Notes under the pieces: generated by a model
What the model saw: only the letters and a program-made list of their open reading frames with translations
What the model was told of the DNA's origin: nothing
Database searches by the model: none
Translations under genes and position numbers: made by a program
Shown here: positions 2,088 through 64,000 of the stretch, piece after piece
Numbering within the stretch: position 1 is the first letter of the stretch
Layout: every line of letters begins with the position of its first letter
Virus record (IMG/VR): IMGVR_UViG_3300042691_044682
Coordinates: 28,322-92,321 of that record
DNA from: a virus
Length of the DNA stretch: 64,000 bases
Direction: 5' to 3' (one strand)

Positions 2088-2317
2088 TCGGCTGGCACCC
2101 CTGCGAATGGATGCCCGCCATCGGGCGCTCCGCCAAGCGCCGCGCCATCGCCTGGTCCTGCCAGACCGATGCGCGGCTGCGGGTGCGCCACTGCGGCCAT
2201 CCGACCGCGCTCCGCCCCTACTACGTCGAGATCGACGGGACGTCGCAGCTCCACGAGCTCGGCACCTTCCGCCTTCTCGACGAGGCCCAGGCCGCCGCCA
2301 TGCGCGCGGTCGGCTGA
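2084..2317 (+). CDS. hypothetical protein, 77 aa
   Basis: The protein overlaps its upstream neighbour by an ATGA junction. It contains three Cys and two His residues (WHPCEW, SCQTD, RHCGHP), so a structural metal site is possible. I do not recognise a family. A GC-rich hairpin with a short T-run follows at 2324 and closes this small operon. Confidence 0.55.
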   Translation: MIGWHPCEWMPAIGRSAKRRAIAWSCQTDARLRVRHCGHPTALRPYYVEIDGTSQLHELGTFRLLDEAQAAAMRAVG

Positions 2318-2323
2318 CCGAAC

Positions 2324-2354
2324 CGCCCCGCTGGCTCCGGCCGGCGGGGCGTTT
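2324..2354 (+). terminator. Rho-independent terminator
   Basis: CGCCCCGC at 2324-2331 pairs with GCGGGGCG at 2344-2351, with a short inner CCGG/CCGG pairing possible, and is followed by TTTCTCG. It ends the 1749-2317 gene pair before the non-coding RNA region. Confidence 0.65.
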
Positions 2355-2432
2355 CTCGTGGCACCTTCATCGATTGCCCCGGCGCCTGACCCTCCGGGGT
2401 TCAGGAATTGTGCATCGGCCGAACCCGCCGCC

Positions 2433-2462
2433 TTGTTTATTCGTGATCCGTAACCATATAAG
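2433..2462 (+). promoter_or_regulatory. sigma70-type promoter of the structured RNA
   Basis: TTGTTT at 2433-2438 and TATAAG at 2457-2462 are separated by 18 bp. The stretch is markedly AT-richer than its surroundings. The predicted start is near 2469, just before the first hairpin of the candidate RNA. Confidence 0.6.
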
Positions 2463-2468
2463 CTTCAC

Positions 2469-3097
2469 GAGGGCAGCCCAGCCGGGCTGGTACCCTGCTC
2501 CCCCATTCAGCAACGTCAGTTTCGGGGGTGAGCAAAGGCCCGCCGCTTCTGCGCTGCGCCGTTTGGGCCGGCGCGCCGGCCGGGCAGTCCTCGAGGATCC
2601 ATCCTTCATTCCCGCGTCCCCTCCTCGTGAGGGGCCAGACCGCGAAGACCAGCCGCGCCGGGAGGCGCGGGGGAACGGGATCCGGCACGCTGCCCGCACG
2701 GCAGCGCTGCCGCCGAGCCTGCCGCGAGTGATGCCGCGGCGGGAGGAATCGGCCCACGCATCCGACCATTCTCCCCGCTGCTTCAGAGCCATGGGGTCTG
2801 GCCTGCTACGATATTCCCGAACGCCGCCCTTCGAGACGGCGCCCCCGAGGCAAGCTCCGCCGATCGGCGCTGACCAGCGCCACCGGGCGGAAAGCGCCGG
2901 CACGGTATGCCGGCCGGCTCGCCCGACGGGGTATTGGACCTGGAGCCCCGGCCGCAAGGCCGGCCCCCTGCTGAAGCGCATGGGGGGCAGTAGGACCAAT
3001 GGAACGCAAAGGTACCGCCGAACGACGCGCCTCCAGCGCGGCGGCCACCATGTGCAGAGAGAAACCCCCCACCGGCACGGTCCGGTGGGGGGTTTCG
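2469..3097 (+). ncRNA. candidate large structured non-coding RNA (about 630 nt)
   Basis: No credible protein gene lies here, yet the + strand is packed with helices. Examples are 2478-2482/2486-2490, 2618-2623/2629-2634, 2653-2659/2664-2670 with a GGGA tetraloop, 2689-2694/2700-2705, and 2741-2752 with 2762-2775 (bulged). Further along are 2866-2871/2876-2881, 2896-2901/2909-2914, and 2948-2953/2958-2963 with a GCAA tetraloop. A long-range helix pairs 2933-2941 with 2992-3000 (one A-A mismatch), and a three-way 3' element spans 3011-3049. Both tetraloops are GNRA only on the + strand, which fixes the orientation. A promoter stands at 2433 and a 14-bp terminator at 3062. Size, phage location and structure recall the GOLLD and ROOL classes of long phage-associated RNAs, but I cannot assign it to either; it may be a new class. 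Confidence 0.65.
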
Positions 3098-3098
3098 T
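3062..3098. terminator. strong bidirectional terminator
   Basis: A perfect 14-bp stem pairs 3062-3075 with 3082-3095 (AAACCCCCCACCGG arm), with T-rich sequence on both sides. It ends the structured RNA on the + strand. On the - strand it ends the gene that stops at 3103. Confidence 0.8.
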
Positions 3099-3102
3099 CG
3101 TT

Positions 3103-3894
3103 TCAGGGCGTCATCGCCGGCATGAGCTGCAGCTGGTCGGCGAGCAGGTCGAGCGCCTTGGGCACGCCCGCGAAGCGCGCCCGCCACTCGGCCTGGCGCC
3201 GCGGCAGGTCGGCCTGCACCCGCGCGCAGTGCGCCCGCCAGGCGCGCAGGTCGCTCTCGTGCGCCTCGGCCAGCCGCGCCAGGCGCCGCCCATACTCCTC
3301 CGCGCTCTCGTCGTGCCGCTGCGGCGGCGGCTCGCGCTCCGGCGGCGCCGGCGGCAGGCCCGGATAGGGCGCCACCTCAAGCTCGAACAGCACCAAGTCC
3401 AGCAACACGCCCAGCACCGGCCAGCTCAGCCGCCCGGCCAGGAGCGTGATGACCCGCCGTGCGCGCGTCACCCGCGGCGGCTCGAGCGCCTCATGGTTCC
3501 GGCCCGGCGCGCCGACGTCGTAGCGCCCCGACCAGCGCCGCTGCACGCCCGCCCGGGTGGCGTACTCGCGCAGGTCCGCCGCGGCCTGCAGGCGCCGGCG
3601 CAGCACGTCGCCCGTGTCGCCGAGCGCGCCACCAATCAGCAGCACCTCGATCGGACCGGGCAGCGCGGCATAGGCGGGGCCGAGGAGGGCGTAGATCTTG
3701 TCGCGGGCCAGCTGCAGGCCGCCGCGCTGGCGTTGCCGCTCCGGGGTGCCGCGATCGGCGCCCCATTTCTGCAGGATCAGGCCGGTGTCACGGTCCCGGT
3801 AGACCTCGACCTGCTCGCGCCGCCGGGTCGCCTCATGGCGAGTTCCCTTGGCCAGCCGCTTGAACCTGGACTTCCACCGCTTCGCCAACCGCAT
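3103..3894 (-). CDS. repressor-linked hypothetical protein, 263 aa
   Basis: This gene sits directly downstream of the CI-like repressor on the same strand, so it is probably expressed in the lysogen. The start is ATG 3894 with GGAGG four bases upstream; a GTG at 3918 is possible. The N-terminus is strongly basic, residues about 55-100 look globular, and a hydrophobic patch near residues 150-175 (RVITLLAGRLSWPVLGVLLDLVLFELEV) could be a membrane or buried helix. The C-terminal third is Arg/Glu/Ala-rich and likely coiled. I recognise no family. Position suggests a lysogenic-conversion or immunity role, but this is inference only. Confidence 0.6.
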   Translation of the reverse strand: MRLAKRWKSRFKRLAKGTRHEATRRREQVEVYRDRDTGLILQKWGADRGTPERQRQRGGLQLARDKIYALLGPAYAALPGPIEVLLIGGALGDTGDVLRRRLQAAADLREYATRAGVQRRWSGRYDVGAPGRNHEALEPPRVTRARRVITLLAGRLSWPVLGVLLDLVLFELEVAPYPGLPPAPPEREPPPQRHDESAEEYGRRLARLAEAHESDLRAWRAHCARVQADLPRRQAEWRARFAGVPKALDLLADQLQLMPAMTP

Positions 3895-3949
3895 CGCGCC
3901 TCCGCACAGGCGCCACACTTCTATGTGGTCCGGGCGAGGCTAGGCAAGG

Positions 3950-4681
3950 CTATACGTCGTCGGCCAGCAGCACCATGAGCGCGACCCGCCCGCGGATCTG
4001 GAAACTGTCGCCATCCACGCGCCAGACCTCGCCGCGATAGGGCCACGGCAGCTCGACCCGAACGCGCTGCATCGTGCCCGAATTGCGGAACACGAGAACC
4101 GCGCGCGCCGCCTCCCCCTCGCCCTCCACCGCCACGCTGCGGACGGTGACCTCATGGCGCCCCTCGCGGATCCGGTGCACGAGCACCAGGTCGCCATCGC
4201 GCAGCGGGCGGGTCATCGAAGCGAAGGCCTGCACGCCGATGTAGCTGCCGGCAGGGTAGATGGCGTTCGCATGGCCATCGAGCAGAACCGCCGCCTCGTC
4301 GGCCGCAAGGCCGGGCGGCAGCGCCAGGTGCTGCGGCGGGGCGATGTCGGCCTCATAGGTCGGCCGCCACATGCCGTCGGCCGCCGCAACCCGGACCGGC
4401 ACGGTCGCCGCCTTCACGCCGGTCGCCGGCGTCTCGCCGATGATCTCGGTCACCGTGGCGCCGGGGATTGCGCGCGCCAGCCGCTCGAGCGTCTCCTGGC
4501 TCAGCGTCTTCGAGTGGCCGTTCATGAAGTTGTAGATGGCATTGGCCGAGCGCAGGCCGGCCGCGCGCGCCCAGTCCGCCGCACGGAGGTCGTGCCGCTG
4601 CATGAAGGCCTCGAGGGCGCCGCGGCGGCGTCGGTACAGCCGATCGCCGCCCCGAGGCCCGTCTAATGGCTGCGTCATCAT
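3950..4681 (-). CDS. CI-like phage repressor with degenerate S24 domain
   Basis: The 243-residue protein has an N-terminal helix-turn-helix (about residues 20-75, RAADWARAAGLRSANAIYNF). The C-terminal half follows the S24/LexA peptidase layout (DGDLVLVHR, YPAGS). The usual GDSM motif reads GHAN and the lysine region reads TVRS, so the catalytic Ser and Lys appear replaced by Ala and Arg. It faces the Cro-like gene across a 41-bp space containing the palindrome CACAGAGTGCTGTG. It should be the lysogeny repressor. Loss of self-cleavage would mean induction by another route. Start: tandem ATGs at 4681/4678. Confidence 0.8.
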   Translation of the reverse strand: MMTQPLDGPRGGDRLYRRRRGALEAFMQRHDLRAADWARAAGLRSANAIYNFMNGHSKTLSQETLERLARAIPGATVTEIIGETPATGVKAATVPVRVAAADGMWRPTYEADIAPPQHLALPPGLAADEAAVLLDGHANAIYPAGSYIGVQAFASMTRPLRDGDLVLVHRIREGRHEVTVRSVAVEGEGEAARAVLVFRNSGTMQRVRVELPWPYRGEVWRVDGDSFQIRGRVALMVLLADDV

Positions 4682-5783: not shown

Positions 5784-6338
5784 TCATGCCACTGCCTCGG
5801 CCAGCCGCGCCTCGATCTGCGCCACCCGCAGCCGCGCGGCCCCGGCCGCCGGCCCGCCGCTCGCCGCCAGCTTGCGGTAGTACTCGAGCAGCGCGCCGTC
5901 GCTGAGGTGGCCGGACGGTCGCGCCACCTTCGGCCCGGCCGCCTCCCGCTGGCGGGCCGGCGCGATGACCTCCTCCGCGTAGCGCGCCCGGAAGGCGGCC
6001 GCGATCGCGGCGCGCGCCTCCGGCGCCAGGGCATCGACGGGGTCGCGCGGCGGCGCCAGCAGGGGCGCGCCGCCGGCGTTCGCGATGGCGCGGCTGTGCG
6101 CCTGCGCGCGCCAGTCCTCGGCCACCAGGGCGCTGATTTCCTCGACCGAGGGCCAGAAGGCGAAGCGGCGGCAGGCCTCGCGCTGGAGCCGCTCGCTCAG
6201 CGCGGCCGTGGGGACGCTGAGCGCGAAGGCCAGCGCCCCGGCCCGGGCCTTGGCGTCGGCGGCGGTCGGCGGGTTCCGCACGGCGGCGGCGAGCGGGCGC
6301 AGGAAGCGCAGCCAGTCCTCGATGGCGGCGGGGGTCAT
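5784..6338 (-). CDS. probable replication accessory protein
   Basis: The 184-residue Ala/Arg-rich protein starts at an ATGA overlap with the DUF1376-like gene, so the two are translationally coupled. It resembles in size and position the helicase-loader or lambda P-like partner that follows an initiator gene in many phages. The segment RRFAFWPSVEEISALV is typical of such small phage replication partners, but no diagnostic motif is visible. The assignment rests on context. Confidence 0.5.
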   Translation of the reverse strand: MTPAAIEDWLRFLRPLAAAVRNPPTAADAKARAGALAFALSVPTAALSERLQREACRRFAFWPSVEEISALVAEDWRAQAHSRAIANAGGAPLLAPPRDPVDALAPEARAAIAAAFRARYAEEVIAPARQREAAGPKVARPSGHLSDGALLEYYRKLAASGGPAAGAARLRVAQIEARLAEAVA

Positions 6339-7465
6339 GAGATCCTCCTCGTTGCGAAGGTGACGTCTATCGGCTCGCCCGGGCCCTCGGCCTCGCGGCG
6401 CATGTCGTCCATCAGCCAGTCGAGCTTGCCCGGCCGGTCGCGGTAGACCTCGCCGCCGTGGCGGGTCGTCTCGGTCTTGTCGGGGAACAGCCCGGTCCAG
6501 CCGTTGGCGATGGATTGCTCGATGACGAGGCGCGGGTCCTGGCCCTTGGCGCGAAGGCGGTCGAGGGCCTTGAGCGACAACTCGGCCGCCCGCTGCGTCC
6601 AGCGCGCCTTGGCGACCTCGGCGCGGTAGCGCGACCAGTCGTCCCAGGCGTCGGCCGGCAGCCAGTCAGGCAGCGCTACGGCGATTTCCGGACGCGGCTT
6701 CGTGCGCCCCGCTCCCCCCCTGGGGGGGGACCCGTCCGAAGGACGGGGGGGGGATTCTTTCTTCTTCTCTACTACCTTCTCCTTCTCTATGGCATTTTCC
6801 GGCATGGCATCAGCATGGTTCGCGGAGTCCGAGGTTTTCTGCGGCTTTGCGGGAAAATGTAACGCGGCACTGGAAGTTACCGGCGGCGTTACAGGCGTTA
6901 CTGCGGGCGTTACGGTAACGCTGGTAACGGCGTTACGCGTTACACCCTCCGACGGCGTTACAGCCCCCGCCGCCGCACGACGGCGCGCCCGCAGCGCCGC
7001 CACCCGCTGGCGGGTCTTCTCGCGCCTCTCGTCCTCCTCGCTGACCCGCCCCCACCGCGCCGCCGCACCCGCATGCGCGCTCCGCCGCCGCGCCGATCGC
7101 CGCTCCCACGCATGCAGGACCGCCTCTGCCACGACCGGGTGGTACAGCCGCCCATCCGAGCATCGGACCCAATGTCGCAGCGCGACCCCCCGCACCTCCG
7201 GCCACAGCGCGCCCGCGCCCGAGAGGTGCTGCAGCACCCTGTCATCGTCCGGCAGGCTGCCCGCCGGCACCTGGTTCCACGACTTCGCCCACAGCGTCAC
7301 GCCAGCCTTGAACTCAGCCCCGTTCGCCAGCGCGTAGAAGTCGCTGTCCAGCAGGCGCATCACGTCGAGAGGCATGAAGCGCAGCCCGCGCAGGTCGGCC
7401 TCCGCCGGCACCAGGGGGTCCGGAAGGCCCTCCTCCCCATCCCGCAGGCGGACCACTCTTGCCAT
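6335..7465 (-). CDS. DUF1376/YdaU-like phage replication initiator
   Basis: The 376-residue protein begins (after ATG 7465, with GGAGGGG upstream) with a DUF1376-type domain: LRFMPLDVMRLLDSDFYALANGAEFKAGVTLWAKSWNQVPAGSLPDDD. This family occurs in phage replication modules next to helicase loaders. A basic linker and a Val-Thr-rich stretch (residues about 168-203) follow. The C-terminal part (ALPDWLPADAWDDWSRYR...GLFPDK) resembles the tail domain of phage replication proteins. The Val-Thr stretch is encoded by a cluster of GTAAC/GTTAC repeats that looks like an origin inside the gene, as in lambda O. Confidence 0.75.
   Translation of the reverse strand: MARVVRLRDGEEGLPDPLVPAEADLRGLRFMPLDVMRLLDSDFYALANGAEFKAGVTLWAKSWNQVPAGSLPDDDRVLQHLSGAGALWPEVRGVALRHWVRCSDGRLYHPVVAEAVLHAWERRSARRRSAHAGAAARWGRVSEEDERREKTRQRVAALRARRRAAAGAVTPSEGVTRNAVTSVTVTPAVTPVTPPVTSSAALHFPAKPQKTSDSANHADAMPENAIEKEKVVEKKKESPPRPSDGSPPRGGAGRTKPRPEIAVALPDWLPADAWDDWSRYRAEVAKARWTQRAAELSLKALDRLRAKGQDPRLVIEQSIANGWTGLFPDKTETTRHGGEVYRDRPGKLDWLMDDMRREAEGPGEPIDVTFATRRIS
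6714..6961. other. candidate replication origin (iterons plus AT-rich tract)
   Basis: Ten GTTAC/GTAAC pentamers occur in 103 bp, starting at 6859, 6876, 6888, 6897, 6909, 6915, 6924, 6932, 6939 and 6957, mostly as GGCGTTAC. Beside them lie an AT-rich polypyrimidine tract (about 6754-6800) and C/G homopolymer runs with a CCCGTCC/GGACGGG hairpin (6714-6753). This is the lambda-type layout of iterons plus unwinding element within an initiator gene. Confidence 0.6.
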
Positions 7466-7717
7466 ACGCCCCTCCGCACTTCCTGTGATCCTGAGCGATG
7501 CCGCAGCGCGCCCATTCGGCACGCGTGCGCATCAACCACACGGCAGGCTAATCCGCGATATGGTTCGGACGCAAGGCGAGTCTTTTCTCCTATCGTTCTG
7601 TGGTTGTCGGATTGATTTCCTTCCGTAGCATCCCCATATCCACCACATCACCCGTCGCTCGCGCCGGACGCACCGCGGATCCGCCGCGGCGCCGCCGCCG
7701 CCAGCCGAGGCACCATC
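7466..7717. promoter_or_regulatory. divergent control region between replication and accessory operons
   Basis: There is no gene in this 252-bp stretch. A partial operator (CTATCGTTCTGTG, 7590-7602) lies mid-region. A + strand promoter may use TTGTCG at about 7605 with TAGCAT at about 7627. The right part contains a CCGCGG/CCGCGG hairpin ahead of the gene at 7718. The - strand promoter for the replication operon must also be here, but I cannot place it. Confidence 0.4.
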
Positions 7718-12400: not shown

Positions 12401-13792
12401 ATGGGGAAGAACCCTTTTCCTCCGGCGACGCCAGACGACCTGGCGCGCGTCGCGCCCATGCTCAGCTTCATGTCGAGCATGGAAGGCAGCTCGCGCTTCG
12501 CATCGGCGCTCCTCGAGGCCTTCAACCTCGTGAAGCTCGATGCGGAGACGCGCGCCTGGCTCGAAGGCCCCGTGGTGGTGCATTCCACCTCGACCTGGCC
12601 GATCGAGCACGGCGATACCCCCCGCTGGATGCTGGACCGGATCCCGGCCGAGAGGCTGGAGATCGTCATGGGCCAGCATCCGGGGATGATCGTCGGCCCG
12701 TGCGAGATCGCAGCGGTGATGCAAAGCGCCATCCATACGGCGCCCCTCACCATGCAAGGCAATGGCCTGTATCTCTGGGCCACGGCCCGCGCGCTGCAGC
12801 ATCGCACGCACGAAGACGGCACCCCGAATCCGCTGTCGGTGGAGGAAGCCGAGCGCATGCTCGGATCCCGGCTCCCACAGGACGCCGAGATCCTCAGCGC
12901 GGCCGGCATGTACCACCAGGACTACCGCTCCCTCTGCGCCGAGATCCGGCGCAAGGTGGCGGCAGGCGGGGGCAAGCGCATCGCGCCTGGTCTCAGGCCG
13001 CGGCCTGCTCCCCTGACGGCGCCCATCGCGGCGCCGCCCAAGACCGTCCCGGTCCCTTCCGAGGTCGCGGCCGTCCTGGCCACGTCGACCTGCGAGGGGA
13101 ACGTCCTCAAGCTCCCGCAGCAGCTCGATCGCCCGACCTACGAGGCGACCGATGCGGTGCTGAAGGCGCTGGGAGGGAAGTGGAATCGCCACAAGGGCGG
13201 GCACGTCTTCGCCGAAGACCCCGCCCCGCTGATCGCCAATGCCCTTGGCGACGGCGCGGTCATCGACCGCAAGAAGACCTTCGAGATCTTCGAGACGCCG
13301 CCCGAGGTGGCCGCGCGCATGGTGGGGATGCTCCCCGCCAGCGAGCGGCTCCTCGAGCCATCGGCCGGTACGGGCCGACTGGTGAAGGCAGCACTCCTCG
13401 CGGGCACGGCGCAGTCCATCCACGCCATCGAGGTTGACCCGCGCAACGTGGGCGAGCTGCGAGCGATCGCAGATCCCCGCGTCGCGGTGATCCATGGCGA
13501 CTTCCTTTCCATCGCCGGAGACACCACATATGACGCCTGCGCGATGAACCCGCCGTTCCGAAACGGCGCCGACATTGCGCATGTGCGTCGTGCCTACGAG
13601 CTGCTTCGGCCAGGCGGCACCCTCGTCGCCATCATGAGCGAGGGCGCGTTCCACCAGCAGCAGCGCCGGGCCAAGGAGTTCCGCTCCTGGCTCCGCGACC
13701 TCAAGACCGAGACGGAGAAACTGCCCGCCGGGACCTTCCGCCAGGAAGGCACCGACGTGGTTACGCGGCTCATCCAGATCCGGAAGCCGTGA
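12401..13792 (+). CDS. N6-adenine-type DNA methyltransferase with novel N-terminal domain
   Basis: In the C-terminal half of this 463-residue protein, LEPSAGTGRLVKAALL (about residues 318-333) is the SAM-binding motif and CAMNPPF (about 378-384) is the NPPY/F catalytic motif of amino-methyltransferases. A long N-terminal region (about residues 1-210) has no motif I recognise. An acidic segment (LPQQLDRPTYEATDAVLKALGGKWNRHKGGHVF) links them and matches regions found in plasmid and phage methyltransferases. It probably protects phage DNA from host restriction or alters gene control. No restriction partner is seen. Confidence 0.75.
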   Translation: MGKNPFPPATPDDLARVAPMLSFMSSMEGSSRFASALLEAFNLVKLDAETRAWLEGPVVVHSTSTWPIEHGDTPRWMLDRIPAERLEIVMGQHPGMIVGPCEIAAVMQSAIHTAPLTMQGNGLYLWATARALQHRTHEDGTPNPLSVEEAERMLGSRLPQDAEILSAAGMYHQDYRSLCAEIRRKVAAGGGKRIAPGLRPRPAPLTAPIAAPPKTVPVPSEVAAVLATSTCEGNVLKLPQQLDRPTYEATDAVLKALGGKWNRHKGGHVFAEDPAPLIANALGDGAVIDRKKTFEIFETPPEVAARMVGMLPASERLLEPSAGTGRLVKAALLAGTAQSIHAIEVDPRNVGELRAIADPRVAVIHGDFLSIAGDTTYDACAMNPPFRNGADIAHVRRAYELLRPGGTLVAIMSEGAFHQQQRRAKEFRSWLRDLKTETEKLPAGTFRQEGTDVVTRLIQIRKP

Positions 13793-14022: not shown

Positions 14023-14112
14023 CGCCGGCCTCCGCTCAGGGGGCCGGCGTGCAAGCCGGTCCGCGCCCCAGGGACCGGCCCTTCGAGGAAATGGGGCGAA
14101 GGAAGAGAGAGC
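14023..14112 (+). promoter_or_regulatory. two-hairpin intergenic element, copy 12
   Basis: Hairpin A pairs 14023-14030 with 14042-14049. Hairpin B pairs GCCCC 14065-14069 with GGGGC 14093-14097, inner GGG/CCC at 14071-14073/14079-14081, with bulge TTCGAGGAAAT. GAAGGAAGAGAG precedes ATG 14113. Confidence 0.7.
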
Positions 14113-14268
14113 ATGACCGGAACATTCGCGTTGGACCTCAGGACCATCGCGCACGCCCTCCTGCCGGAGGGGCTGCGCCGCTGGCTGGCCCACCTCCTCG
14201 AGCGCTTCGGGGAGGTGGCCGCCTTCGGCACGGCGATCATCGCTCTGGTGGTCGGCATTCTGCGCTGA
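14113..14268 (+). CDS. 51-residue membrane peptide
   Basis: This is the last gene of the accessory series. An amphipathic N-terminal half (LRRWLAHLLERFG) is followed by a hydrophobic C-terminal helix (VAAFGTAIIALVVGIL). It is a probable single-pass membrane peptide of unknown role. A strong terminator follows 25 bases after the stop. Confidence 0.55.
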   Translation: MTGTFALDLRTIAHALLPEGLRRWLAHLLERFGEVAAFGTAIIALVVGILR

Positions 14269-14292
14269 CCACCGCACTGGCCCATCTGGGCG

Positions 14293-14326
14293 ACGCCGCT
14301 TCGGGAGACCGGGGCGGCGTTTTTTC
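14293..14326 (+). terminator. Rho-independent terminator of accessory operon
   Basis: ACGCCGC at 14293-14299 pairs with GCGGCGT at 14314-14320, followed by TTTTTTC. It ends the 7.7-14.3 kb series. Confidence 0.75.
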
Positions 14327-23221: not shown

Positions 23222-23577
23222 CGGCGCTCCGCCTGCCCGACTGGCCGCTCCTGATGGACCAGCCGACGCTGCAGCGCTACCTGAGCCTGACGCGTCGCCA
23301 GCTGAAGGCCTATCTGGCCGCCGGCCTGGTTCCCCCGGCGCGCGAGCACCTGCCCGGCCAGCTGCGCTGGCACCGCGGCGAGGTGGATGCTTCGATCGCC
23401 CGCGCATGGGGGATGCGCCAGGCGGAGGAGCCAGGGGATGCGATCAGGGAAGCGAAGCAGCGCCTTGAGGGGCTCGCCGGCCCGGCCCGCCTACGTCCAG
23501 GCCGTGCAGGCGGCCAGCGGCGCGACCTACCTCTACTACCGCCGCAACGGCCGGCGAATCCCCCTTCCCGGCCCTGA
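23218..23577 (+). CDS. putative excisionase / AlpA-type DNA-binding protein
   Basis: The 119-residue protein has a winged-helix-like start: LPDWPLLMDQPTLQRYLSLTRRQLKAYLAAGLVPPAREHLPGQLRWHRGEVDASI. This is the layout of AlpA/Xis proteins. It overlaps the integrase gene by about 140 bp in another frame, an arrangement seen for xis-int pairs. The last 40 residues lie wholly in the overlap and are Pro/Arg-rich, so they may not be functionally important. Confidence 0.65.
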   Translation: MTALRLPDWPLLMDQPTLQRYLSLTRRQLKAYLAAGLVPPAREHLPGQLRWHRGEVDASIARAWGMRQAEEPGDAIREAKQRLEGLAGPARLRPGRAGGQRRDLPLLPPQRPANPPSRP

Positions 23578-24661
23578 GGGGTCGGAAGCCTTCCGGATCG
23601 CCTACCAGCAGGCTGAGAGGTTCTTCGAGGGCGCCTTCGCTCCCCCTGGCTCTGGGCGCCACACCGTCGAGGACGTCATCACCGCCTACCTCGACAGCGC
23701 CGACTATCGCCAGCTCGCGCCCAAGACCCGCGCCGACTACCGCCGTGTGCTGGACGGCTTCCGGACCCACTTCGGCGACCTCCCGGCGGCTGCGCTCACC
23801 GAGCCCTGGATCGAGGAACTGCGGGCCAGGTACGCTCCCGACCACAGCCGCGGCGATGCCGGCCACGCGATCGAGTGGAACGCGCTGCGCGCGCGCATGA
23901 TCAGCGCCATGCGCCACTACCGGCGGGTTCACCCCGAGGCCGGTCTGGCGAACCCATGGGAGGCGTCCCGCCGCCTCAAGCCGCCGGTCAGCACCGCGCA
24001 CCGGCCCTGGCCGCCGGAGGTGCTCCTGGCCGCGCTGCGCGCGGCGACGCCGGAGTTCCGCGCGCTGCTGGTCGGCTACCTCCTCACGGCGCAGCGCGGC
24101 GGCGACGTGACCCGCTTCGGGCCGGAGCAGTACGACGCCGCCAGCCGGACGCTCACGCTGAGCCAGGGCAAGACCGAGGTGCCGCTGCGGATCCATGTGC
24201 CGGCGCCACTGGCGACCGCGATCGAGGCGATGCGCGGCCGCGGCGCGACCAGGCTATTCGTCACCCCGCGCGGCCGACCATGGACGACAGCCAACGCGCA
24301 GGAGACGCTGGCGCGGCTGCTCGAGCAACTCGGCCTGGCGCGCTACACGCTGCACGGGCTCCGGGCGACAGGCCCGGTGGCGCTGAAGATGCTCGGCTTC
24401 GAGAACCGCGCCATCCGGGCGCTGACCGGGCACACCTCCGACCGCAACCTCGAGGTCTACCTGCGCGGCGTGGAGCACTACCCGCTCGCGCGCGAGGCGC
24501 AGGAAGCGCTCGCCGGCGTCTTCGGGCCAGTGATCGAGGACGCGCTCGCCGGATCCAACGAGCGCCGATTCAGCGGTGTGACCGGGCGCGCGGCCCGCGC
24601 AGGTGGCAAATCAGTGGCAAATGACAAATCTGGGCGGCGGGAGAAGGCTCTAAGTGATTGA
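23438..24661 (+). CDS. int: tyrosine-type phage integrase
   Basis: The 407-residue protein has an arm/core-binding region (HTVEDVITAYLDSADYRQLAPKTRADYRRVLDGF) and a catalytic domain with a full set of residues. These are Arg in AQRGGDV, Lys in QGKTEVPLRI, HGLR, His in GHTS and the nucleophile Tyr in LEVYLRGV. ATG 23438 follows GGAGGAG; ATG 23387 is possible. The stop lies nine bases from a tRNA 3'-end sequence, the presumed attachment site. Confidence 0.93.
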   Translation: MRSGKRSSALRGSPARPAYVQAVQAASGATYLYYRRNGRRIPLPGPEGSEAFRIAYQQAERFFEGAFAPPGSGRHTVEDVITAYLDSADYRQLAPKTRADYRRVLDGFRTHFGDLPAAALTEPWIEELRARYAPDHSRGDAGHAIEWNALRARMISAMRHYRRVHPEAGLANPWEASRRLKPPVSTAHRPWPPEVLLAALRAATPEFRALLVGYLLTAQRGGDVTRFGPEQYDAASRTLTLSQGKTEVPLRIHVPAPLATAIEAMRGRGATRLFVTPRGRPWTTANAQETLARLLEQLGLARYTLHGLRATGPVALKMLGFENRAIRALTGHTSDRNLEVYLRGVEHYPLAREAQEALAGVFGPVIEDALAGSNERRFSGVTGRAARAGGKSVANDKSGRREKALSD

Positions 24662-24669
24662 TTTTACTC

Positions 24670-24705
24670 TGGCATCCCGTACGGGATTCGAACCCGTGTT
24701 ACCAA
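24670..24705 (-). other. attP core: 3' end of a tRNA gene
   Basis: Read on the - strand, this is a T-arm (24697-24681, ACGGG TTCGAAT CCCGT), the acceptor strand ACGGGAT, G and CCA (24672-24670). No 5' acceptor half (ATCCCGT) or normal anticodon arm follows upstream, so it is not an intact tRNA. The site abuts the integrase and phage genes lie on both sides, as expected of an unrecombined phage attachment site. Confidence 0.7.
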
Positions 24706-24830
24706 CGTGGACACCACGATTTGCGCTAGATCAATGCCTTGAACCGGCAAATTTTCCAGGGCGCCGCCTGGTGCACCACATCGCCAGCACATCACTTCAC
24801 ATCGGCTTCATACGATCGGTAGGTTTTTTT

Positions 24831-30155: not shown

Positions 30156-32801
30156 TCAGATCTCCCGCACCACGATGTTCTGCCGAGGCTGGTCTTCGGC
30201 CGCAGGCACCGAAACGACGCGCTCGCGCGCAGCGATCGTGGGGGAGCGCAGCCACACTACCGTCCCCGGCACCGGATAAGTCCCGGCCCGGATATTTTTC
30301 ACGAGGAATTCACGCGCGAGCACCCGCGCGAAGCGCAGGTTGAAGATGACCTCGAGGCCCGCCTCGCCGGCCAGCAGGGCCTCGGCGAAGGCGGTCCGGT
30401 AGGCCTCGGCGAGCAGATCACCCTGGCCCAGCAGCAGCGCCTCGGCGCCGAGCAGGATGCGCGGCTCCGGCGCGACCAGGCCGCCCTGGCCGGCCAGTGC
30501 CGCAAGGGCGGCCAGATCCAGCCGGGCCAGCCCCGAGAGCCCGCCCTGCCCCGCCAGCGCCGCCGCGGCGAGCCGCTGCGCCTGGGGCGTCGCCGCAAGA
30601 GTGCCAGCGCCGGTGAGGGAGGCCAGCGCGCGCGCCCAGAGGCCCGCCTCAGCAGCCAGGGTGCCAGCGCCGGACAGCGCCACCGCGATCGAGGCGCCGC
30701 CCGTCGTGCTGGCGGCGAGGTTGCCTATACCGGAGAGGGCCGCCGCGATAGACAAACGAGCTTGTGGCTCGGCCGTGAGAGACAACGCCCCGGCCAGCGC
30801 CGCCTCGGCCAGCGCGATCCGCCGCGCGTCGGTGGCGAGGGTGCCGGCGCCGGCAAGCGCCTGGGTGGCGAACGAGGTCCGGCGAGCGTCTGCCGCGGCG
30901 GTGCCGGCGCCGGAGAAGGCGACGGCCAGGCGCAGGAGCGCGCGGGCGTCGGCTGCGAGCGTCCCGGTGCCGGTGAGGCTCGCGGTGCCGAGCTGCGTGC
31001 CTTCGGCGACGATGTAGAGGCTGCCGGCGCCCGAGAGGGAGGCGGCGAGCCGCAGCAGCGCCTTGGCGTCGGCCGAGACCGCGCCTGCGCCGCTCAGCAG
31101 CTCCGCGACGAGCGCGATGCGGCGGCTGTCGGCGGTGGCGGTGCCGCTGCCGGCCAGCGTGGCGGCGGCGCGTACCAGGGCGACCGGGTCGGCGTAGAGC
31201 CCACCGGCGCCCGCCAGGGCAGCCAGCGCGGCGGCCCGCATCCCCGCATCGACGGCGAGGGTGCCCTGCCCCGACAGGGCGGCCGAGGCGAACTGGGTGC
31301 CTTCGGCGGTGACAGAGATGGAGCCCGCGCCGGCCAGGCTGGCGGCGAGGCGCAGATGGGCCCGGGCATCGGCCGAGAGGCCGGCGACGGCGGCCAGGGC
31401 TGCGGCGTCGCGCAGCAGAACGCCGGCGTCGGCGGCGAGCGTCCCGACCCCCGAGAGGCTCGCGGCGGCGAAGGCGGCCCTGGTGCCGTCCACCGACACC
31501 GCGCCGGAGCCGGACAGCGCGGCGGTGACCCGGATCTGTGCGGCGGGATCCGCGGCGACCGCGCCGACACCCGTGAGGGCGGCCGAGGCGCTGACGGTCG
31601 AGCCCCCGATGTCCGGCAGGATGAGGGCGGCGAAGGCGAGGCGGACCCGGCTGCCGGCGCCGCTCTGCACCGTGGCGTCGGCGGCCAGGCTGCCGGCGCC
31701 TGCGAGCGCGGCCGTGAAGCGGATCGTGGCGGCGGCATCGGTGGCGAGGGCGCCGGCGCCGGCGAGCGCCGCCGCGGCGAGAGCCTGGTTCTGCCCGGTG
31801 GCGGCCAGGGTGCCCGCCCCGGTCAGGGCGGCGGTCCCGGTAGTGATGACCCCGGCGCTCGCGACAAGGGTGCCGGCGCCCGTCAGCGCAGCGGCGGCGA
31901 GAAGCTGGTTCTGGCCCGCGCCGACGAGGCTACCCGCCCCCGTGAGCGCCGCGGTGCCGGACTGAATGCGGCGCGCCTCGCCCGCCAGCAAACCGGCGCC
32001 GGTGAGGGATGCCTCCCCCTGGTAGGTCGTACCGCCGCCCTGGACGGTGGCGTCGGCGGCCAGGCTGCCGGCGCCCGAGAGCGCCACCGCCAGGCTCAGG
32101 GACGCCTTGGCGTCGGAGGACGCGGTGCCGGCGCCGGTGAGCGAAGCCGTCGCCTGCAGCGGGATCGGCGGGCTGATCGCCAGCGTCCACGACACCCACT
32201 GCTCGGAGGCGCTGGTGAAGGTGCCGGGGTCGAGCGACGAGGCGTTGGCCTGGTACTCGGCCGTGTTGGTCGAGGCGCCGCCCGTGCCCGCCGCCGCCTG
32301 GGTCTGGAGGTCGGTGAAGGTGCCCGGCGTGGTCGGCGCGACGGTGGCGACCGTCGTGCTGTCGCCCGAGCGGGTGACGATCCAGAGGTAGTCCTGCGCG
32401 CCGCTCGGGCCCGTGTGCTGAGGCGGGTTCGAGTTGGTCGACGAGTTGTTCGCGCTCGTGCCGGTGACCGGGTTGGTGCTGGCGTGCCCGGTGATGCGAA
32501 GCGAGGTGTGCGACGACTGCTCGGAGGCGCTGGTCGTCAGCGTGAGGGCGTCGGAGCCCTCAGCGATCTTCCAGATGATCGCGCCCGTGACGATGGTGCC
32601 GTTCGAGGCTTGCCCGAGGATGCTCCAGTTGTCGCCCGAGACGCCCGTGTTGATTGAGACGGTCGGGTTGCCGTCCACCGAGAAGACCACCACCAGCAGG
32701 TCGCCGGCCGAGATGCTGGCGGGCAGCGTGATGGCGTGCGACGTGGTGTTCGTTGCGGTGGTGCGGTTGTTCGCCCGGGTCTGGACGCTCGGAAAGGCCA
32801 T
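30156..32801 (-). CDS. large fibre-like protein with about 29 twenty-residue repeats
   Basis: Residues about 1-215 of this 881-residue protein form a beta-rich, Ser/Thr-rich head (jelly-roll-like). Residues about 218-815 are tandem repeats of near-constant 20-residue length, consensus AALsGAGtLaAdArarlrla, for example SLTGTGTLAADARALLRLA. The C-terminal 65 residues are different (AREFLVKNIRAGTYPVPGTVVW). The repeats should form an elongated solenoid or helical fibre. The same repeat occurs in the next gene upstream and in the central fibre J. Confidence 0.75.
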   Translation of the reverse strand: MAFPSVQTRANNRTTATNTTSHAITLPASISAGDLLVVVFSVDGNPTVSINTGVSGDNWSILGQASNGTIVTGAIIWKIAEGSDALTLTTSASEQSSHTSLRITGHASTNPVTGTSANNSSTNSNPPQHTGPSGAQDYLWIVTRSGDSTTVATVAPTTPGTFTDLQTQAAAGTGGASTNTAEYQANASSLDPGTFTSASEQWVSWTLAISPPIPLQATASLTGAGTASSDAKASLSLAVALSGAGSLAADATVQGGGTTYQGEASLTGAGLLAGEARRIQSGTAALTGAGSLVGAGQNQLLAAAALTGAGTLVASAGVITTGTAALTGAGTLAATGQNQALAAAALAGAGALATDAAATIRFTAALAGAGSLAADATVQSGAGSRVRLAFAALILPDIGGSTVSASAALTGVGAVAADPAAQIRVTAALSGSGAVSVDGTRAAFAAASLSGVGTLAADAGVLLRDAAALAAVAGLSADARAHLRLAASLAGAGSISVTAEGTQFASAALSGQGTLAVDAGMRAAALAALAGAGGLYADPVALVRAAATLAGSGTATADSRRIALVAELLSGAGAVSADAKALLRLAASLSGAGSLYIVAEGTQLGTASLTGTGTLAADARALLRLAVAFSGAGTAAADARRTSFATQALAGAGTLATDARRIALAEAALAGALSLTAEPQARLSIAAALSGIGNLAASTTGGASIAVALSGAGTLAAEAGLWARALASLTGAGTLAATPQAQRLAAAALAGQGGLSGLARLDLAALAALAGQGGLVAPEPRILLGAEALLLGQGDLLAEAYRTAFAEALLAGEAGLEVIFNLRFARVLAREFLVKNIRAGTYPVPGTVVWLRSPTIAARERVVSVPAAEDQPRQNIVVREI

Positions 32802-56655: not shown

Positions 56656-58209
56656 TCAGCCGGCGGCGATGTTGCTGATGACCGCCTGGCCCGGCAGGAA
56701 GTAGCACTGCAGGACCTGGTCGGTGTAGACGCCGTACTCGTAGCTGCGAGTCCGGAGCGGCCACTCCATCTGGTAGTAGTCCTGACGGCACAGGACCCGG
56801 TTCACCTCGCCGACGCCCGACAGCGGATACGGGATCTCGTGCGTCAGGAAGAGGATGGTCCCCGGCGGCACGTTCGGGTGCAGCTTGATCGGGATCTCCT
56901 GCGCCCCATCCATCGAGTACTGGTTGATGTACCCGCGGATCATGCCGCCCGCACGGATGCCATCCTGCGCCGCCATGTAGGTGAAGCGCTGCATGGAGGT
57001 GGAGGCGCCCGTGGTGGCCTTGGCGCGCATCGAGCCGAGCTCGCGCGCGTTCACCCAGATCTCGGACGGCGAGATCTTCAGGTTGTCCCAGTACCAGCGC
57101 AGCACGTAGTCGATCTCGACGATGCCGCCGGCATTGTCCGAGGTCAGCGGCGTGCCCGTGCCGGCCGTGCCGGTGGCGAGGTTGTGCCACAGCGCGCCCG
57201 AGCCCGACTTGGCCACCATCGACATGAAGCCATCGTGCACCAGCGCGTTCTGGCTCCGGTCGTTCGACACCAGGTCCGCCGGAAGCGCCTGGTTGCCGCC
57301 GGCCGGAAGCGCGGTGATGACCGTGGAGTTGATCGTGGTGATCGCGTGGAGCTTCAGGTTCGCCGCGGTGCCGTCCGTCGAGCCCGCGTACCAGGCGTAG
57401 GCGACCGCGCCCTTCACCGGAGCGACGGAAGCGCTGACCACGTGCACCGAGCCGCCGGAGCCCGCCGTCGCCTGCGAGGCGGCGTCGGACGCCTGGCTGG
57501 AGCCGCCGCCGAAGGCCTGCGAGGTGCCGTCCGCGTTGGTGCGGGACACCTCGGCACGGATGCCGGTCGCGAGCGACTGCGCCGCGCCGTGCATGTAGCC
57601 CTCGAGGGTCAGCGCCACGACGCGGACATAGACCGTCGTCGCCTGCGCGATGGTGCCGCCGGATGCCGCGGTGGCGAGCGTCGGCGTCGGCGCCTTGCCG
57701 AGGCCGAAGGTGCCCAGGCCGCCGAGGATGACCTTCTCCTCGCCGATCATGAGCGCGCGCAGGTTGGACTGCACCGCGCGGGCCTTCGCATCGTCGAAGC
57801 CCTGCGCCGCCAGCTGCGCCTCGAAGGTCACGTCGCCCTCGATGCCCAGCGTGCGGAACTGCGCGAAGTAGTCCGCGGTGGTGACGGCCTGCACGCCGCC
57901 ACGACGGCCCTCGCCGACACCGACACCGATGTTCGAGGTGTCGATTCCGGTGATCGCACGCCAGTTCGCCTGGATGCCGGCGCCGCCCGTCGCGCGGGAC
58001 AACTTGTTCCGCAGCGGCGTGATGACGGGCATGAGGAGCTTGGCGGGCGCCTCGAGCGAATACGCCGTCAGCCCGGAGGTGGCCGAGCCGGACTGCGCGA
58101 AGGTGGCCTTGGCGAGCTGGCCAGGGTCCATCGCCTTGGCGAGCGCTTCCTTCACGACCGACAGCGACCGCGCGCTGTCGACCGGGTTTCCGTACTGGTC
58201 GAAGTTCAT
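56656..58209 (-). CDS. major capsid protein with Ig-like insertion
   Basis: In this 517-residue protein, segments such as ITPLRNKLSRATGGAGIQANWRAITGID, DYFAQFRTLGIEGDVTFEAQLAAQGFDDAKA, and the C-terminal IPIKLHPNVPPGTILFLTHEIPYPLSGVGEVNRVLCRQDYYQMEWPLRTRSYEYGVYTDQVLQC identify a phage major capsid protein. Residues about 185-305 look like a fibronectin/Ig-type domain inserted in a surface loop (VTVYVRVVAL-like strand, YAWYAGSTDGTAANLKL). ATG 58209 follows the gap after the scaffold gene. Confidence 0.82.
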   Translation of the reverse strand: MNFDQYGNPVDSARSLSVVKEALAKAMDPGQLAKATFAQSGSATSGLTAYSLEAPAKLLMPVITPLRNKLSRATGGAGIQANWRAITGIDTSNIGVGVGEGRRGGVQAVTTADYFAQFRTLGIEGDVTFEAQLAAQGFDDAKARAVQSNLRALMIGEEKVILGGLGTFGLGKAPTPTLATAASGGTIAQATTVYVRVVALTLEGYMHGAAQSLATGIRAEVSRTNADGTSQAFGGGSSQASDAASQATAGSGGSVHVVSASVAPVKGAVAYAWYAGSTDGTAANLKLHAITTINSTVITALPAGGNQALPADLVSNDRSQNALVHDGFMSMVAKSGSGALWHNLATGTAGTGTPLTSDNAGGIVEIDYVLRWYWDNLKISPSEIWVNARELGSMRAKATTGASTSMQRFTYMAAQDGIRAGGMIRGYINQYSMDGAQEIPIKLHPNVPPGTILFLTHEIPYPLSGVGEVNRVLCRQDYYQMEWPLRTRSYEYGVYTDQVLQCYFLPGQAVISNIAAG

Positions 58210-58445
58210 GGGTGTGGGTTCCCGGCTCCCTCGGGGAGCCGCGCGTCGCCGCGCCCCAGCGGCGTCGTGCACGGGGCTGGACAGCGCTCAGCCGCGCCCG
58301 CACCCGCGCGCTGCGCGCCGGGCGTGGCCGTGTCGTCGTGCTGTCAGAGGTGCCGGTTGCTCAGGCCGGCGATTTGCGAGCGGCGCCGCGCGAGGCGACG
58401 CGAGGCGGAACCGGCACGAGGCCGGACCGCGAACCTGGAATCAGA

Positions 58446-60070: not shown

Positions 60071-63000
60071 TCATTGGTAGGTCGGCGTCGGCATCGCGCC
60101 GCGCGCCACGCGCGCCGCGACCTCGGGGCCGTAGCGCTTCTCGGCGGCGGCATAGGCACGCGCCGCCACTTCCTCGACGCCCAGGCTGGCGATCGCGCCG
60201 TAGATCGTGCCGCGCATCGCGGTCTTGGCCGCGGCGCTCACCACCGCCTGGGTGCCGATGCCGGCCCCGGCGCGGGTCAGCTCCTCGCCCGCTTCGCGCT
60301 CCGGCGGATCCCAGCCGGGCGGGGCCTCCTTGCCGCGCATGCGGTAGGTCGCCGCGCCCACCTCCTCGCCGCCCATCTGCCCCCCGAGGCCGCCAGCGAT
60401 GGCGCCAGCGAGCACGGCGGGCCCGCGGATGCCGATGGCAGCCGTCTTGCCGGCCGCACGGGCGGCGAAGCGCGCGGTGCGCGGCCCGATCGCGCCACCG
60501 AGGCGCGAAGCCAGGCGGGCGACGGTGCCGGCGGTGCGCAGCGGCTTCGGCAAATAGCGGCTCGCCACCTCGAAGGCTGCCGCGCCACCCAGCGCGCCGC
60601 CGAGCATGCCGCCCATCCGGACGGGCTCGAAGAAGCTGCGCTCGGGCGGCGCGGGCGGCGCTTGGCGCTCAGCGCGCGGGCGCGCCGGACCGCTGCCGCC
60701 GGCCTTCGGGGCGAACTCGCCGCCGCGGTCGTCGCCACGCGGGTTGCGCCGGATCTTCTGCTCGTCGAACTCACGCCGACGGCCGGGGATGCCCTCCTCC
60801 GCTGCCTTGCGCAGCAGGGCATGCGAGGCCTTGCGGAGATCGCCGGCCGACCAGGAGGCCTCCTTCCTCTTGGCGGGGCGGATCCTGCCCATGGTGCGCC
60901 GCTCGGCCTCGGCCTGGACCTCCGCCCACCAATCCTCGGCCGAACGCTCGGGCGTCCGCTTGCTCGCGAGATCCTGCTCCACCGCGCGAACCGCGGCATC
61001 GAACATCTGCTCCACCCGCGCGCGCCCGGCCATGCTGAGCACCTTGACGCCGTAGCCGCCATCCGAGACCGGGCGGGTGAGTTTGCCCACGCCGTCGACG
61101 ATGGCGCCCTTCCGGGCTTCCTCGTCGTCGAAGGACTCCACCGTCGTCGCCCCTTGTGGCGAGGTGCGCACGGTCGCCGCCGGCGGCGGGCCTGCGACGG
61201 GCGCGGGCTTGGGCGCCGGGGCCGGGGAGGCGGCACGCTTGCTCTCGATCTCGCCGATCAGCCGCGTCGCCTCGTCCGAGGTCAGCCGCATGCCCTGCGC
61301 CGGCACGATGTGCTGGTAGAAGCCGACGATCCGGCGCACGGCCTGCATCTGCGCGTCGTCGCGCGGCGGGGCGAGGCCGGTGAGCGAGTTCCTCAGCGCG
61401 CCCGCGAACTTCGCCTTCTCGGTGCCGGTGCCATAGGATTCGCGGACACCCGGCAGCAGCAGGCCGGCCTGCTTGTCGGTGCCGGCGAGCACCTGGTGGA
61501 TGAAGTTCGGGTTGAGCAGGTTGGTCTCATCCGCCTCGAACACCCGCGCCGCCGTCTCATACCAGGCCCCGGTGTTGAACTTGCCGCCCGCCCGGACCTT
61601 GTCGGAGACTTCCTTGAGCAGCGCATCGCGGACCTGCAGGCCGGGCTGCTGCACCTCGGCATCGCCGCTGGAATCCTGCTTGCGGTACGAGAAGGCGTCG
61701 TCGCCGAGCTCGTCGGCGCGAACGACGTAGCCCTTGGCGTTTGCCACCCCGAGCGCCTTGGCCCAGGCCTCGTGCTGCTCCTGGCTGCCCTCGACGCGCG
61801 GCTTGGCGCCGCCCTGGCCGGGCTTCTGCTGCTGCGCCTGGCGGCGGTTGCGGGCCATCTCGTTCGTGTCGGCGACAACGTCCTTCACCCGCGAGCCCGC
61901 GGGGATGTCCTGCACGACCTGCTTGCCGTCCTTGTCCTTCACGATGCGGACGCCACTCACCACGATGCGCTCGCCGGAAAGGTTCGGGGCGGCGATCAGG
62001 CTGAGGCGCACCTCGCTGTCGAGGCCCGGGTTGCGGATGAAGTTCACCGGCCGCGGGCGGGTCTCCGCGGCGACGAGGTGCGCCGGGATGTCTTTCACGC
62101 GGTCGAAGCGGAAGTTCACCTCCCCGTCGTCGGCCTGGTCGGCGAGGCCGAGGGTGGTGGCGATCGCCGTGCCGGTCGCCCCGGCGACGAGCAGCTCCTT
62201 CGCGTTCCGGTTGGCCCAGCGCGCGCCGCTCATGACACCTGTGCCGGCGTCTTGCGCCTTCGTCTTCAGCGTCTCGATCGACGGCAGGCGCGCCGCCACC
62301 GCGTCCTTCACCTCGCGGCCGAGCCGTGCCGCGTCCTGCCCGAAGGAGCGCAGCGGCGGGCCGAGGCGGTTCATCAGGTCGCGCGCCCGCTGGAAGCCCA
62401 CGGGCACGTTGTCGCTCTCCCGCACGCCGCGCAGGGCGCGCTGGTAGACCGCCTGGGCCGCGTTGGCGGCGCGGTCGAGGTCGGCCACCGAGCGGGACGC
62501 CGCCTGGGCGATCTCGTCGGTAAGGCCCTTGAGCTCGTTGGTCGAGACGGCCGAGATGAGGGCGTTCAACTCCTTGTCGTCGACCGGGCGCGAGGTGAGG
62601 AAGGTGGTGCGCGCCCACGGGTTCTCGATCGGCGGCGCCTTCGCGGGCTTCAGCGCGTCAGCCGCCTCAGCCACCCGCTTCATGGCGGCCTCGGCGCTGG
62701 TGTTGAGGTCGGCGACCTCGGCCTCGAGCTTGGCGATGTCGTCGCGGTACTTCGGGAGGTTCTTGATCGGCGACTCGCCGCCGTCCTTCACGATCTGCTC
62801 GACCTCCTCGAGGCGCTGCTGGCGCCGCGTGAGGTCGCTCTGCTTGAGGGCATGGGCGGTCTTCAGATCGACGGCTTCCTTGCGGATGGCCTGGTTCGCC
62901 TGCGCCAACGCATCGATCCGCGCCTTGTAGGCGGCCTTGGCGTCGGACGCCTCGCTCCGGATCTTGTCGATGATGGTCTTCTGGCGATCGGTGAGCGGGA

Positions 63001-64000
63001 AGCCGTCGTAGTTCCCGTTCATCAGGTCGCTGAGCGCGTCGGGCTTCGCGACCTTGCCGTCCTTGCCGACCAGCACCTTGCTGGTCAGGGCGGACTTGAG
63101 GCGCTTCCAGTCCTCGGGCTTCTGGCCCTTCTCGTAGAAGCCGGCCTTCGCCCCGGCGAGGCCGCGCAGGCGATCGCGCAGCTGGAGGTCCACCTGCAGG
63201 TTCGCCCAGTCGGTGGGGTCGGAGGAGTTCCAGGCCGCCTTGAGGGCGTCCGTGGTCGCCTTGCTGCGCCGCGTGGCGGCTTCCAGCGCCGGGCCCTTCG
63301 CGCGCTCGAGGTTGACCATGGCGCGCTCGCGCGCGCGGTCGCGCAGCAGCTTCAGGCGCTCGTCGGCGGGGAGCGCCTGGTAGTCGGGAGTGCCGGGCTT
63401 CGGCGGGTAGGCGGTGAAGGGCGAGCGGGTGGTGGTGGCCTTGCTGCCGTCGGTCAGGGTCTGCTCGGCCGAAATGGTGGGCTCAGCGCCGGAGCGGCGC
63501 GCGGTGGCCTGGGTGCCGAGCTTGAGGTCCGGGCGCTTGGTGTCCGGGCCGCGCGACGCCATGAACGATGCCGGGACGCTGACCGAGACTTCGCCGGTCG
63601 TGTCGGGGCGGATGACGCGCGTGCCCGGGACGCCTTCGAGGATGCGGCGCGCCACGGCGGCGTTGCGGCCGCGGATGAACTGGGCGCCGGCGATGGCGCC
63701 GCCGACGACGCCGGCACCGGCCAGGCCGGCGATCACGCCGCGCTCGTGCGCGCTGAGCCCTTCCGCCTTCGGACCGCGATCGCCGACGTCGCGCTCCTTC
63801 GACGTGAAGCGGCCGTTCTCGTCGCGGTAGTAGCGCCGGTTGGCCATGACGCCGCCGTAACCCGCAGCCGCGCCCGCGCCGCCACCCAGCGCAGCGCCGC
63901 CCAGGGCGGTAAGGCCGAGGCCGCCGAGGCCATAGGCGCCGGCCTGGCGCATGCGGGTGCGCGCGGCCAGACGGCCGATGCGCTCGTACTTGGCCGAGCG
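60071..64000 (-). CDS. giant internal virion-like protein, 5' partial
   Basis: At least 1309 residues are present and the gene runs past the window end. Gly/Ala-rich membrane-like segments occur near both ends (YGLGGLGLTALGGAALGGGAG; GGMLGGALGGAAAF; AVLAGAIAGGLGG). The middle is long coiled helix (residues about 300-480). Motifs YRDENGRFTSK and RRNPRGDDRGGEFAPK resemble the GRF-type tags seen at the ends of phage peptidase and morphogenesis proteins. It may be an ejected internal protein or a fusion with a portal or protease encoded beyond the window. Confidence 0.55.
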   Translation of the reverse strand, partial: RSAKYERIGRLAARTRMRQAGAYGLGGLGLTALGGAALGGGAGAAAGYGGVMANRRYYRDENGRFTSKERDVGDRGPKAEGLSAHERGVIAGLAGAGVVGGAIAGAQFIRGRNAAVARRILEGVPGTRVIRPDTTGEVSVSVPASFMASRGPDTKRPDLKLGTQATARRSGAEPTISAEQTLTDGSKATTTRSPFTAYPPKPGTPDYQALPADERLKLLRDRARERAMVNLERAKGPALEAATRRSKATTDALKAAWNSSDPTDWANLQVDLQLRDRLRGLAGAKAGFYEKGQKPEDWKRLKSALTSKVLVGKDGKVAKPDALSDLMNGNYDGFPLTDRQKTIIDKIRSEASDAKAAYKARIDALAQANQAIRKEAVDLKTAHALKQSDLTRRQQRLEEVEQIVKDGGESPIKNLPKYRDDIAKLEAEVADLNTSAEAAMKRVAEAADALKPAKAPPIENPWARTTFLTSRPVDDKELNALISAVSTNELKGLTDEIAQAASRSVADLDRAANAAQAVYQRALRGVRESDNVPVGFQRARDLMNRLGPPLRSFGQDAARLGREVKDAVAARLPSIETLKTKAQDAGTGVMSGARWANRNAKELLVAGATGTAIATTLGLADQADDGEVNFRFDRVKDIPAHLVAAETRPRPVNFIRNPGLDSEVRLSLIAAPNLSGERIVVSGVRIVKDKDGKQVVQDIPAGSRVKDVVADTNEMARNRRQAQQQKPGQGGAKPRVEGSQEQHEAWAKALGVANAKGYVVRADELGDDAFSYRKQDSSGDAEVQQPGLQVRDALLKEVSDKVRAGGKFNTGAWYETAARVFEADETNLLNPNFIHQVLAGTDKQAGLLLPGVRESYGTGTEKAKFAGALRNSLTGLAPPRDDAQMQAVRRIVGFYQHIVPAQGMRLTSDEATRLIGEIESKRAASPAPAPKPAPVAGPPPAATVRTSPQGATTVESFDDEEARKGAIVDGVGKLTRPVSDGGYGVKVLSMAGRARVEQMFDAAVRAVEQDLASKRTPERSAEDWWAEVQAEAERRTMGRIRPAKRKEASWSAGDLRKASHALLRKAAEEGIPGRRREFDEQKIRRNPRGDDRGGEFAPKAGGSGPARPRAERQAPPAPPERSFFEPVRMGGMLGGALGGAAAFEVASRYLPKPLRTAGTVARLASRLGGAIGPRTARFAARAAGKTAAIGIRGPAVLAGAIAGGLGGQMGGEEVGAATYRMRGKEAPPGWDPPEREAGEELTRAGAGIGTQAVVSAAAKTAMRGTIYGAIASLGVEEVAARAYAAAEKRYGPEVAARVARGAMPTPTYQ

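Follow-up and report, generated by a model that had tools for sequence, protein, structure and literature searches.

A candidate non-coding RNA unit beside the immunity operon of a GC-rich, probably temperate phage

The window analysed here is a 64 kb stretch with a G+C content of 71%, taken from positions 28322-92321 of a virus record that is 92,321 bp long. Its genes include an integrase (23387-24661; Pfam Phage_integrase), a repressor-like gene (3950-4681), a replication O-like gene (6335-7522), RecT and exonuclease VIII, and a temperate phage is the natural reading of this gene content. Just past the integrase gene, the - strand of 24660-24740 looks like the 3' portion of a tRNA gene, and this stretch is a likely attP core. 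ARAGORN found no tRNA in the record, including this partial one, which was read directly from the sequence. The capsid protein (56656-58272) shows 50% identity to the capsid proteins of two Brevundimonas phages, and its relatives in viral contigs and bacterial genomes are many, most of them at 44-57% identity. No relative of the replication protein (6338-7522) was found in viral contigs, and two large ORFs, of 1293 aa (60071-63952) and 881 aa (30156-32801), had no PHROG match.

The region under study is bordered on one side by the end of a small-gene cluster that runs rightward and on the other by the end of the immunity operon (3950-4681 and 3103-3918), which runs leftward. Within the small-gene cluster, an inter-gene cassette is repeated at 268-357 and 1654-1745; it consists of an identical hairpin, GCGCCCCCGGCTTCGGCCGGGGGC, followed about 30 nt on by a similar leader hairpin (GTCGAGCCC..GGATCGC..GGGCGAAGGGACACC) and then by the start codon. 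The features of the region and its flanks are as follows.

2084-2317, + strand: rightward gene upstream of the region
2324-2351, + strand: terminator-like hairpin of 12 bp with the tail TTTCTC, ending gene 2084-2317
2433-2462, + strand: putative sigma70-type promoter, TTGTTT-18-TATAAG, agreeing with the consensus at 8/12 positions
2469-3062, + strand: body of the candidate non-coding RNA, some 594 nt, or some 628 nt if the terminator is included
2469-2592, + strand: predicted 5' domain, with 2469-2484/2577-2592 as its closing helix of 14 bp
2653-2670, + strand: hairpin CCGCGCC-GGGA-GGCGCGG, with a 7-bp stem and the GNRA loop GGGA at 2660-2663
2688-2706 and 2718-2743, + strand: two tandem GC-rich hairpins, from the perfect-hairpin count
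2866-2881 and 2896-2914, + strand: two tandem perfect hairpins, from the same count
2933-3000, + strand: predicted three-way junction, with outer helix 2933-2941/2992-3000, the GCAA hairpin 2948-2963 and a hairpin at 2963-2988
2948-2963, + strand: GCAA (GNRA) hairpin, with a 6-bp stem and the loop at 2954-2957
3061-3096, both strands: bidirectional terminator-like perfect hairpin of 15 bp (3061-3075 with 3082-3096)
3103-3918, - strand: convergent gene, downstream of the repressor-like gene, with its stop codon at 3103-3105
3950-4681, - strand: repressor-like gene, the first of the leftward operon, with a weak PHROG match to a transcriptional repressor (phrog_4, E 7e-4)

Codon periodicity is lost from about 2300 to 3060, and nowhere else in the 92-kb record does a sub-threshold, non-coding run reach the roughly 810 nt seen here. 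Under a codon model trained on 30 genes of the same phage, the seven ORFs tested inside the region scored from -0.20 to -0.55 bits per codon; the 30 genes, each left out in turn, scored from 0.15 to 0.88. Two frames of the region are open over about 210 codons, a length that is expected at 71% GC. None of the ORFs tested had a Pfam match, the 210-aa frame of the - strand had no PHROG match, and a tblastn search of phages with the two longest frames (210 aa each) found nothing. The region truly lacks coding content, and the view of an earlier, sequence-only reading that it holds no credible protein gene was borne out by the negative codon log-odds of the ORFs tested and the loss of periodicity.

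The promoter proposed in that reading was found at 2433-2462, but its -35 box is poor (3/6) and its total score occurs at the shuffled frequency, with 24 sites scoring at least 8/12 on the + strand of the record versus 23.9 in shuffles. The sequence TATAA is present only once on both strands of the 92,321-bp record, within this putative -10 box (TATAAG), versus an expectation of 3.5 +/- 2.3 in shuffles, and the A+T content of the promoter area lies at the 99.6th percentile of the record. At the other end of the region, a perfect terminator-like hairpin is indeed present, although it has 15 bp rather than the 14 bp first given. Its fold z is -5.3 on the + strand and -6.4 on the - strand. It has no long T run on the + strand, and it adjoins the stop codon of the convergent gene, directly 3' of it. 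This hairpin may be the terminator of 3103-3918, since its T-rich tail, read from the sequence, is better on the - strand. The distance between the two flanking terminators is 711 bp, which is unusually long for this phage.

Perfect hairpins of at least 6 bp number 10 in the region versus 2.83 +/- 1.68 in shuffles (p 0.0015), and in a separate test 10 were reached in 0/500 shuffles, with 2.8-2.9 expected; only 1.3% of phage windows reach this number. Stems capped by GNRA loops number two on the + strand and none on the - strand, as had been noted for the loops GGGA (2660) and GCAA (2954). With stems of at least 6 bp, 0.011 such structures are expected, and two were reached in 0/2000 shuffles and in 0.3% of phage windows; these hairpin and GNRA tests were run on a region picked for looking hairpin-rich, and the p values are somewhat flattered. 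Among 11 other low-coding runs examined, 10 have 0-3.6 hairpins per 590 nt. The 11th run, at 6689-7229 within the replication O-like gene, loses codon periodicity and has 10.9 hairpins per 590 nt. The local hairpin excess of the region is real as compared with chance; hairpins are palindromic, and hence it is no proof of an RNA.

The fold as a whole is ordinary. Without the terminator, the MFE z is -1.36 on the + strand and -1.78 on the - strand, and the two halves of the + strand give -1.56 and -0.50. The 100-nt windows of the region have a mean z of -0.36 versus -0.47 for the other windows of the phage, and windows from coding parts of this phage fold to a similar degree. When the base-pair span is limited to 50 nt, z is -2.46 on the + strand and -2.31 on the - strand, against a phage background of -0.99 +/- 1.53. 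The best long-range helix scores 50 versus 45.9 +/- 6.3 in shuffles (p 0.25). Thus, a structural excess over shuffled sequences, considered as a whole, was not found: the MFE z is ordinary, the windows are at background and long-range helices are at chance. In a genome of 71% GC, an ornate RNA cannot be argued from a large number of predicted helices, and the signal here lies in the counts of local hairpins and GNRA loops, not in the global fold energy.

The predicted 5' domain has a z of -2.3 on the + strand and -3.0 on the - strand; its signal is not strand-specific, and its closing helix begins at the predicted first nucleotide. In the most stable fold, a second large domain is closed by 2652-2668/3027-3042. 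The closing helices compete with local hairpins, and that of the second domain, as predicted, displaces the GGGA hairpin in the global fold. The long-range 8-bp pairing reported between 2933-2941 and 2992-3000 exists and closes the predicted three-way junction, but it consists of 5 bp, an A.A mismatch and 3 bp. The z of the junction is about -2.0 to -2.9 on the + strand and -2.1 to -2.4 on the - strand.

We then consider relatives. No Rfam family matched the record at its gathering score, and only chance-level matches with E up to 10 were obtained in 2300-3200. The covariance models of GOLLD and ROOL had no match at gathering score in the record, nor any with E up to 10 in 2300-3200. A blastn search of the region in phages and plasmids gave no match. 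Relatives of the capsid protein led to 80 viral loci and 53 genome loci. The region was searched in 50 capsid-related viral records, from which six stretches were fetched and compared, and in 50 capsid-related genomes; both searches gave only short matches (13-70 nt) of the kind expected by chance. Overall, the region was searched in about 800 genomes. These include 385 genomes of the class of a Methylobacterium genome (G067) and 369 of the class of a Rhodocyclaceae genome (G069); neither set yielded a relative among the candidates scored, at most two per genome, a negative result that says little in the absence of a positive control. Four patterns of 15-16 nt, found at 25, 24, 31 and 14 loci in viral contigs, showed nothing past the seed with blastn or nhmmer. 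The protein of the convergent gene (3106-3918) is also an orphan, unmatched in viral contigs, genome contigs, phages, plasmids and the 385 genomes of the G067 class.

Several candidate matches were rejected. A 40-nt match of 82%, seen in L159 and its relatives, has the look of coding sequence. A pair of matches in G049 looked collinear, and the stretch reads as phage genes without extended similarity. Single-sequence covariance models of the 3' junction and the 5' domain gave no credible match. Their single hit, in one of 289 genomes (L265; E 1.6e-5, 36.6 bits), falls within an ORF resembling a LysR-type regulator, a sign that these models may return E-values that are too low in GC-rich sequence. 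Separately, L003 has two intergenic arrays (12410-12800 and 14030-14310, record coordinates) made of degenerate short repeats of the GCCNNGCC type, such as CCTTGCC and CCATGCC, with overlapping periods of 10-54 nt according to Tandem Repeats Finder.

The lack of coding signal, the unique TATAA, the flanking terminators, the hairpin excess and the GNRA loops of the + strand moderately favour an RNA gene on the + strand. Our best reading, with a probability of roughly 0.45, is that the region is an orphan accessory unit, similar to a moron, that encodes a non-coding RNA beside the immunity operon. The layout resembles the moron type, in that promoter-like and terminator-like sites are present between phage operons, the terminator being shared and the promoter putative. 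According to this proposal, transcription would start near 2469 from the putative promoter of the host sigma70 type and would end at the bidirectional hairpin 3061-3096, giving an RNA of about 600-630 nt. This RNA would fold into short GC-rich hairpins arranged in a chain, with GNRA loops capping two of the hairpins. The transcript would act as an RNA, most likely accessory or regulatory and made in the lysogen. We infer the transcription of the candidate RNA, its timing and strand, and its function. The sequence signals listed above support a non-coding transcription unit on the + strand as part of what the sequence-only reading had called a new large structured non-coding RNA; the other part, a large structured RNA of the GOLLD or ROOL kind or of a new class, is unsupported.

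The chief rival, possible though on the doubtful side, is that the region is a plain GC-rich spacer between convergent units, in which the leftward immunity operon terminates at the hairpin 3061-3096 and the promoter-like and hairpin features are due to chance. The position of this hairpin directly after the stop codon of the convergent gene agrees with such a spacer, as do the near-background MFE and windowed z, the chance level of long-range pairing, the commonness of promoter scores of 8/12 and the absence of conservation in the searches. Against a spacer speak the unusual distance between the terminators and the unique TATAA, and the hairpin and GNRA counts exceed those of shuffles and of most other low-coding runs of the phage.

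Another possibility, which we consider improbable, is that the dyads work as double- or single-stranded DNA, in a replication origin or an array for protein binding. Perfect hairpins are by nature equal on both strands, the fold z is similar on both, and the replication O-like gene is a few kb off. However, the region contains no iteron-like direct repeats, only four two-copy families; the GC skew does not turn there, the hairpin sequences differ from one another, and the GNRA loops are specific to the + strand.

It is likewise improbable that the region represents a large structured phage RNA of a new class, separate from GOLLD and ROOL and made from its own promoter, in which long helices would close both a 5' domain (2469-2592) and a 3' domain (2652-3042). 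Comparison among homologues defines a class of structured non-coding RNA, by sequence blocks that are conserved and base pairs that covary (PMC2864571); as the searches found no relative, the region cannot be claimed as such a new class.

ROOL has multiple pseudoknots and is an RNA-only nanocage. A member or analogue of GOLLD or ROOL, or a new class of that kind, would be a folded and possibly multimeric RNA, and we regard this as distinctly improbable. The candidate resembles these RNAs in being phage-borne, in its length of hundreds of nt (about 600) and in the many helices of its predicted fold, with GNRA loops. It differs from them in having no covariance-model match even at E 10, no tRNA neighbours and no structural excess. 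GOLLD is often located near tRNA islands, and many of its members are longer than 800 nt (PMC12286853); here no tRNA was found in the record and the unit is about 630 nt, although such a context is not an absolute criterion. A large ornate RNA is therefore unsupported, since no Rfam match, tRNA, excess of fold energy or long-range pairing, or homologue was found. Least probable is a decayed former gene or insertion remnant, for which two frames open over some 210 codons might speak, but no residual codon periodicity and no protein match in the frames tested were found, and frames of such length are expected at this GC content.

If the proposed accessory unit is transcribed, its product would be a long orphan RNA that a temperate phage encodes next to its immunity genes, a neighbourhood in which RNAs can steer lysogeny or exclude rival phages. 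Prophage BTP1 produces the 786-nt non-coding RNA STnc6030, which was discovered by RNA-seq and is antisense to tail and injection genes, and other prophage non-coding RNAs exist (PMC7067206). The candidate is similar to STnc6030 and to prophage moron loci in belonging to a temperate phage, in the size of the RNA (0.6-0.8 kb, here only predicted), in having its own promoter (here putative) and in its expected expression in the lysogen. Unlike the antisense STnc6030, it is intergenic and known here from sequence alone. As for lambda OOP and other antisense RNAs of the immunity region, the candidate is also convergent to immunity-region genes, whereas it is much longer than OOP and ends before the convergent gene, with no overlap shown. 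As the layout suggests, transcription continuing beyond 3096 would yield RNA antisense to 3103-3918 and to the repressor-like gene.
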